Shown: positions 32,759 through 34,317 of the stretch, piece by piece | Position numbering within the stretch: position 1 is the first letter of the stretch | How the letters are laid out: the number at the start of each line of letters is the position of its first letter | NCBI RefSeq assembly: GCF_001613545.1 | Contig: NZ_BDCO01000002.1 | Span: 2,418,001-2,482,000 of the forward strand | DNA from: Terrimicrobium sacchariphilum | GTDB taxonomy: Bacteria; Verrucomicrobiota; Verrucomicrobiia; Chthoniobacterales; Terrimicrobiaceae | Direction: 5' to 3' | Length of the DNA: 64,000 bases | Program-made: the position numbers and the translations under genes | Notes under the pieces: model-generated | What the model was told of the DNA's origin: nothing | The model's database searches: none | The model's input: only the letters and a program-made list of their open reading frames with translations

Positions 32759-32841
32759 GCCGGCGTGGCGGAACTGGCAGACGCGCACGACTCAAAATCG
32801 TGTTCCTTTCAGGAGTGTGGGTTCGATCCCCTCCGCCGGCA
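32759..32841 (+). tRNA. tRNA-Leu (anticodon CAA)
   Basis: The cloverleaf is readable: acceptor GCCGGCG / CGCCGGC with discriminator A, D arm GCG...CGC containing the GG of the loop, anticodon stem CACGA / TCGTG with loop CTCAAAA (anticodon CAA at 34-36), a class II long variable arm (TCCT-TTC-AGGA), and the T loop TTCGATC. The T stem GTGGG / CCCTC has one T-T mismatch. CCA is not encoded. Confidence 0.93.
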
Positions 32842-33039: not shown

Positions 33040-34317
33040 CTAGAGTGCTTTTTTTCGTCTGTATCCCGACCAGGAGCGGCGGATGACATACCATCCTCCA
33101 ATGAGCAAACTTATGCCAAAGAGCGCGGAGCTATTTGGCTCCGGCACGGTATTGAAGCCGACATAGCCATCCTGAAGATTGAAGGCGACATCCTTTCCGA
33201 AGAATGCGGTGATCCCGGTGTTTACATAGAGGGCGGGCGAGTCGATGACGTTTTGGGTCGAGAGTCCGATGGAGTTTAGGCCAGAGACGTTTCCGACCGG
33301 AGTATCCAGAATGGTCGAGTCATTCGATGCCTCGTAGGGTTGGCCGATCAGGGAAAAGGAACCGCCGTTGGCCAGTGCATCGGCCAAGGCTTGAGAGACA
33401 TCGGAGTAGTCACCTGCGTCGGCTCCGACCGGATGGATCTCGGTATTGGGTGCTCCGGTGTCGTACACGATGCCGATGTTGGTAAAGGTCAGCGGAGTAC
33501 CATCGGTGGGACTGGTCGAGATAGAGGTCGTTCCGTTCGAAAGGATTTCTTCATATACCTTCTGGCCTGAGTTGAGGAATGTTTCGCCAGACGGGGTTAC
33601 CATCTTTGCGGTGGCATCCCAATGAGATGCCTCCAATTGATTCGTTGTGAGTCCGACCTGAACCCAACCCGTTCCGATCAGGCCTTTGCCGACACCCGAC
33701 GCAGGGACATCTCCCAGGTGAATAACAAAACCAGCATTCGCGGAATTGCCGAATTGCGGAATCAAGGCAAAGAGAGAGACCGGGTTCGGGGTGTTTGCGG
33801 TGGAGGGGAGTGATCCGAGTCCCATGCCAAAGTCCCCGTAGAAATACTTTTCCAAGGGTGCTTCGTTGGGAAGTCGTTCTGTCCACTGGTTGATGGACTT
33901 GTCGGGGTGGGTCGGATTCGAAGCGCTTGAGATCAAGCCGATATTGGACTGGAGGGAGGCAGGGGCACCTCCGTCCGTGACCTCGAAGGTGACCGAGGTA
34001 TTGCTCAGATGAGCGCTCAGTTCGTTCCCGCTCGCATAGCTGAGAGAGTATTCACCCTGGGTATTTTCCGTGGCGCTGTAAGGAAAGGCAAAAAAGCCGG
34101 TTCCCCCTGTATCAAACTCGTACATCCGCCAGGGGGTGTTGGAGCCATCGGTCACCGATCCCACCTGAAGGTTTATGCCCACCTTGTATTGAGGTGCGTC
34201 CTCAGAGCCGACATTGAAAATATAGAGAGGAATGCGGAACGGCGTGAATTCCTGGGCCTGCGCCCTGAGTCCGAACAACCCAACTGCCATAATGAAAAGG
34301 CAAACCCTGAGAATCAT
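33040..34317 (-). CDS. PEP-CTERM protein resembling a pepsin-type aspartic protease
   Basis: A 425-residue exported protein. It has a signal peptide (MILRVCLFIMAVGLFGLRAQA) and a C-terminal PEP-CTERM sorting tail: VPEP at 391-394, a hydrophobic helix about 398-412, then basic residues (RRSW...YRRKKAL). Between them are two DTG triads, FDTGGTGF (Asp69) and YDTGAPNTEI (Asp286), each after hydrophobic strands. Other parts also follow the pepsin order: SLSYASGNELSAHL (flap-like, Tyr94), GMGLGSLP near 164-171, and FFGKDVAFNLQDGYVGF near 372-388, like the C-terminal strand of family A1. I infer a two-lobed aspartic protease or a relative, anchored or sorted by an exosortase. Activity is not proven. 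It is a single gene. Confidence 0.75.
   Translation of the reverse strand: MILRVCLFIMAVGLFGLRAQAQEFTPFRIPLYIFNVGSEDAPQYKVGINLQVGSVTDGSNTPWRMYEFDTGGTGFFAFPYSATENTQGEYSLSYASGNELSAHLSNTSVTFEVTDGGAPASLQSNIGLISSASNPTHPDKSINQWTERLPNEAPLEKYFYGDFGMGLGSLPSTANTPNPVSLFALIPQFGNSANAGFVIHLGDVPASGVGKGLIGTGWVQVGLTTNQLEASHWDATAKMVTPSGETFLNSGQKVYEEILSNGTTSISTSPTDGTPLTFTNIGIVYDTGAPNTEIHPVGADAGDYSDVSQALADALANGGSFSLIGQPYEASNDSTILDTPVGNVSGLNSIGLSTQNVIDSPALYVNTGITAFFGKDVAFNLQDGYVGFNTVPEPNSSALFGISLLIGGWYVIRRSWSGYRRKKAL

Follow-up and report, generated by a model that had tools for sequence, protein, structure and literature searches.

The gene at positions 33040 to 34317 of the window (i.e., the whole 64,000-nucleotide stretch of Terrimicrobium sacchariphilum DNA analyzed here) raises the question of whether a bacterial protein with a PEP-CTERM sorting tail may also be a pepsin-like protease, as a sequence-only reading had proposed, and, if so, where it would act. 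We favor the hypothesis that its product is an aspartic endoprotease of pepsin architecture that is exported and tethered to the surface, to which we assign a probability of roughly 0.7. The parts of the 425-residue product that the earlier reading had pointed out are in place: two DTG motifs (residues 69-71 and 286-288) with a spacing of 217 residues; a Tyr at residue 94, in a flap-like segment; the strings GMGLGSLP and FFGKDVAFNLQDGYVGF; and VPEP with a hydrophobic stretch and RRSWSGYRRKKAL. The features of the gene are the following.

33040 to 34317, minus strand: whole gene of the pepsin-like PEP-CTERM protein (425 aa), with an ATG start and without internal stop
34255 to 34317, minus strand: residues 1-21 (MILRVCLFIMAVGLFGLRAQA), a probable Sec signal peptide as read by eye
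34105 to 34113, minus strand: putative first catalytic motif D69-T70-G71 (context YEFDTGG), invariant, aligned with pepsin Asp32 and the DTG of A1 proteases
34006 to 34047, minus strand: flap-like segment SLSYASGNELSAHL with Tyr94, in register with the trichodermapepsin flap SISYGDGSSSSG
33811 to 33843, minus strand: N-lobe psi-loop segment FYGDFGMGLGS, with G164 invariant, aligned with FDGVVGMGF of renin
33454 to 33462, minus strand: putative second catalytic motif D286-T287-G288, within IVYDTGA, in register with pepsin Asp215 and VDTGA of renin
33154 to 33222, minus strand: C-lobe psi-loop and last strand NTGITAFFGKDVAFNLQDGYVGF, with N366 and G368 invariant, aligned with a 23-residue segment of renin
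33043 to 33147, minus strand: sorting tail of the PEP-CTERM type, made up of VPEP, a hydrophobic helix and a basic end, above the cut-off of TIGR02595 and below that of PF07589

The gene is real and under purifying selection, given a dN/dS of 0.16 over 424 codons against its orthologue in Spartobacteria bacterium LR76 (70% identity); a same-genus relative carries a copy identical in sequence to that of LR76. It is one of three full-length family members in the 4.75 Mb genome (the others being L002 and L043), and lies alone between a tRNA-Leu and a yidC-containing gene block. The neighbors of the LR76 orthologue are different ones, and a search around the gene for an operon partner, a conserved neighbor, or a promoter or terminator above chance found none. 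The tRNA-Leu (CAA; 32759-32841) is located about 200 bases off the end of the gene and is transcribed towards it.

Two DTG motifs alone are no proof of a protease since at least two are found in 1.4% of composition-preserving shuffles; it is conservation that carries the case. Profile searches of Verrucomicrobiota genomes provided about 20 full-length relatives with a patchy distribution (24 of 384 class-level genomes had a match, part of these to the PEP-CTERM tail only), and protein searches of plasmid records added relatives from Azospirillum, Xanthomonas sacchari and Methylobacterium bullatum. Identity to the 425-residue protein is mostly 15-30%. The M. bullatum relative is a clear member (L084:2704-3879; E=2e-26 with the family profile) in an unannotated part of the plasmid 1 record. 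Four scans of viral contigs for further relatives and a phage search found none. Phyla beyond Verrucomicrobiota were sampled through plasmid and phage records only, and the taxonomic breadth of the family reported here is, therefore, a lower bound. An alignment of 24 relatives has D69, T70, G71, G164, D286, G288 and N366 as its invariant columns, and among 21 diverse members from two phyla, the only invariant positions are D69-T-G, G164, D286-x-G and N366-x-G368. That is, the invariant set consists of both putative catalytic Asp motifs and, by alignment, the counterparts of the two psi-loop glycines of pepsin. In the LR76 orthologue, for instance, the second motif reads DSG, with D286 and G288 kept. 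Loss of the Asp motifs in homologues was the observation that the sequence-only reading had named as counting against itself; in the relatives checked here, both motifs are retained.

Searched alone against Pfam, NCBIfam and the PDB, the 425-residue protein returned its PEP-CTERM tail and noise, with no protease match and, specifically, none to PF20729 or NF038019; it is because such single-sequence searches are silent that proteins of this family are annotated as hypothetical. Three alignments of relatives, none including a pepsin sequence, were also used as profiles against PDB sequences. For the 21-member profile (two phyla; 177,635 PDB sequences), the best 60 of 75 matches were aspartic proteases or PE_PGRS16. 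The top match, renin (E=9.5e-8), covered profile positions 27-342 of 343 in a colinear alignment that paired the first DTG with the first DTG, FyGdfG with FDGVVG, the second DTG with the second DTG, and last strand with last strand, while the PE_PGRS16 structure (4EHC) matched at E=4.5e-5. The 24-member profile had procardosin B as its best match (E=1.1e-5), with all 60 matches listed being A1 enzymes, and the ectodomain-only profile had trichodermapepsin (E=9e-5), with 28 of 28 matches to A1. Individual members gave matches under the Pfam cut-offs, i.e., the paralogue L002 to Asp (PF00026; E=0.0014, 18.6 bits, cut-off 19.9) and the relative L016 to PE-PGRS_C (PF20729; E=5e-6, 26.5 bits, cut-off 33).

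Comparison by hhalign with six A1 sequences (three checked against the PDB and three taken from PDB alignments) scored the last strand at 29.6 and the first DTG at 22.6, both in register, while the highest score among 60 shuffles was 20.0; the best match was that of the C-lobe last strand to the pepsin C-terminus. The reverse test, with the six-sequence A1 profile against the family, gave weak scores, close to those of shuffled sequences. A C-lobe-only profile had no significant match (TolB chance matches at E=0.04; plasmepsin V at E=0.25) and, thus, support for this lobe comes from the full-length alignment and from invariance. The PF00026 scan of 145 genomes of the phylum returned no match, and its controls were equally silent, so it has no bearing on absence. 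AlphaFold2 models were of low confidence (pLDDT 30.2 for the full ectodomain, from an alignment of only two usable sequences that included the LR76 orthologue, and 38.6 for the N-lobe alone, from a two-sequence alignment), and Foldseek found no meaningful match with either.

Alternatively, the product might be an unrelated beta-rich PEP-CTERM surface protein that has acquired two DTG motifs by chance. The shuffling frequency and the lack of a database match for the protein alone leave some space for this explanation; however, the fact that both motifs are invariant throughout 24 relatives is difficult to reconcile with it, and the restriction of the best 60 matches of the 21-member profile to aspartic proteases and PE_PGRS16, with a colinear, full-length alignment, contradicts it, so that we consider it hardly credible. 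Rather, the profile matches to solved structures and the invariance of both Asp motifs bear out the earlier two-lobed, pepsin-like reading and support a real, if distant, two-lobed pepsin-like protein homologous to family A1, which is very probably a surface-tethered aspartic protease.

Family A1 is defined by D-[ST]-G-[ST] occurring twice, a flap Tyr, and hydrophobic-hydrophobic-Gly in each psi-loop (Rawlings and Bateman, PMC2761423). The family studied here shares with it two D-[ST]-G motifs after hydrophobic residues (D69-T-G and D286-[TS]-G are invariant in 24 relatives), a Tyr (Tyr94) aligned with the flap (Tyr75), and homology across both lobes (renin, E=9.5e-8). It departs from it in the residue after each D-x-G, which is not Ser/Thr in the 425-residue protein (DTGG and DTGA; DTGS is found in lobe 1 of some relatives), and in the psi-loops, which read DFG (G164) in lobe 1 and NTG (G368) in lobe 2, in register with the A1 motifs. 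That is, both psi-loops keep the Gly and have lost the first hydrophobic residue or both; the lobe-2 Asn is invariant, and one relative (L019) has IIG in lobe 1. Because of these altered psi-loop motifs we do not file the protein as a strict A1 member. The pepsin-like homology is supported, strict A1 membership is not, and the protein probably represents an A1-homologous separate subfamily.

These departures also bear on the main rival explanation, namely a pepsin-like fold without protease activity, serving as a surface- or matrix-binding or structural protein. DTGG in place of the DTGS/T of A1 enzymes and the altered psi-loops are in its favor, as are the second motif of a neighboring relative (L015:89-1483), which reads DIG, and the Phe that some relatives have at the flap position (Tyr or Phe in every aligned group I member). 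Non-catalytic A1 homologues do exist, e.g., plant xylanase inhibitors, and these, possibly together with PE_PGRS16, represent precedents for an inactive scaffold. However, across two phyla whose sequences differ at almost all other positions, both Asp residues and the Gly that follows each of them are invariant, and there is no clear reason for a binding protein to keep both Asp motifs. We therefore regard the inactive scaffold as unlikely, if worth keeping in view, and favor an active protease.

With respect to location, the earlier exosortase-sorting reading gains support from several sides. The protein ends in the C-terminal motif, helix and basic tail typical of PEP-CTERM proteins, scoring 17.5 bits with NCBIfam TIGR02595 (PEP_CTERM; cut-off 16) and 14.9 bits with Pfam PF07589 (cut-off 20.7), and the same genome has one exosortase gene (E=1.5e-44) and 91 PEP-CTERM matches. 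The tail is found on 16 of the 24 close relatives; the family also includes relatives without PEP-CTERM, with an Ig-like domain in its place, or without an export signal. The low Pfam score and these latter relatives would be consistent with an active pepsin-like protease that is not processed by exosortase, being periplasmic or tethered to the inner membrane by its C-terminal helix, but the TIGR02595 score above cut-off, the presence of the tail on most close relatives, and the exosortase and numerous PEP-CTERM matches of the genome argue against such a location, which we deem rather improbable. Literature searches for a link between PEP-CTERM and aspartic (or aspartyl) proteases gave no result. 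Among the relatives, L016:759-2186 is without PEP-CTERM, carries an Ig-like domain of bacterial type at its C-terminus (Big_7, E=8e-6), and is the member with the best PE-PGRS_C match, and L017:1477-4064 encodes two divergently oriented members, 116 bases apart, both with a PEP-CTERM tail.

If the protein is indeed an exosortase-sorted protease, it would be exported by the Sec system through its probable signal peptide and then cleaved or anchored by the exosortase/PEP-CTERM system at the envelope or the exopolysaccharide matrix, as the tail and the exosortase suggest. Two beta lobes, providing one Asp each (69 and 286), would activate a water molecule between them, and the Tyr94 flap would cover the cleft, by homology to pepsins. 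The likely mature N-terminus is about 47 residues from Asp69 (31 in pepsin), too few to accommodate a typical 45-residue propeptide, and the sole Cys of the protein (C6) is within the putative signal peptide; hence, folding is probably direct and involves neither zymogen activation nor disulfides. Its job would likely be the processing of other proteins of the surface or matrix, among which we infer the substrate to be by analogy with the action of PecA on PE_PGRS proteins, and perhaps of fellow PEP-CTERM proteins.

The wider family includes tandem pairs in Verrucomicrobiota (L003:1429-3510 and L004:1423-3493) and on Azospirillum plasmids (L080:1297-3586 and L083:2839-5147, with products annotated as hypothetical), each composed of one gene of the group of the 425-residue protein and one of a second group that is more divergent, with the gene order reversed between the two taxa. 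The tandem-pair proteins that were read had no export signal by eye. The phylogenetic tree splits the two groups (98/97), and the Azospirillum and verrucomicrobial partners pair inside each group, while eukaryotic enzymes join the second group, a join that is unsafe because of long branches. This tandem pairing suggests that the two genes are linked in function or were transferred together. Elsewhere, in four genomes from two genera (L002, L011, L032, L015), pepsin-like genes belonging to two different subgroups immediately follow tgt (queuine tRNA-ribosyltransferase), and the DIG-bearing gene mentioned above is a divergent member that overlaps a pepsin-like neighbor and may be a partner that has degenerated or works differently.

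Bacterial pepsin homologues have so far been described as rare and mostly cytoplasmic. At about even odds, in our view, the genes described here belong to a large, unannotated bacterial radiation of two-lobed pepsin-like proteases, spanning at least two phyla and two often-tandem groups, with some members cytoplasmic (by eye) and some exported and exosortase-sorted, in which case pepsin-type enzymes would be an old bacterial family rather than a few recent eukaryotic imports. The family provides bacterial sequences for dating the duplication of the pepsin lobes, and its exported, exosortase-sorted branch would be a plausible surface protease for the PEP-CTERM system, most cargo proteins of which are without known functions, with a cheap inhibitor test (pepstatin) at hand.

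The protein can be compared with several known systems. The enzymes of family A1 (pepsin, renin, cathepsin D, plasmepsins) have the two lobes predicted here, a DTG/DSG in each, a flap Tyr/Phe and the terminal strand, but the 425-residue protein has no Cys in its mature part, little or no propeptide, a PEP-CTERM tail, and no match above the Pfam cut-off. Shewasins and other bacterial pepsin homologues (PMC2761423; PMC4814920) are likewise two-lobed, with Ala after the second DTG (A289 here, Thr218 in pepsin; renin also has Ala); however, they are without signal peptide and keep hydrophobic-hydrophobic-Gly, and shewasin D is cytoplasmic. A neutral pH optimum might be read from this Ala, but that reading was rejected since the Ala-bearing shewasin D has its optimum at pH 3.5-4 (PMC4814920). 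The RloA retropepsin-like enzymes (PMC12239564) are exported bacterial aspartic proteases as well, but are single-lobed and work as dimers. PepA, the flocculation PEP-CTERM protein (NF033554), resembles ours as a PEP-CTERM surface protein, but its match (residues 248-414, a region that includes the sorting tail; E=4e-4) is far under cut-off, with 20 of the 80 bits required, and a protease role of PepA is not established. The nearest functional parallel is PecA, with the PE-PGRS C-terminal domain of mycobacteria (NF038019, PF20729, 4EHC), which is bacterial, surface-located and two-lobed, with DTG plus DSG/DTG. PecA is an aspartic protease of the mycobacterial surface and carries out the processing of other PE_PGRS proteins, whereas no activity was found for PE_PGRS16, of the same fold (PMC6819658). 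PecA reaches the surface by type VII secretion through its PE domain, in contrast to the Sec and PEP-CTERM route predicted for the 425-residue protein. While secreted bacterial aspartic proteases are already known from PecA, what the present analysis adds is the probable exosortase route, a candidate bacterial radiation that had gone unrecognized, and the conservation of the tandem pairs between two phyla.
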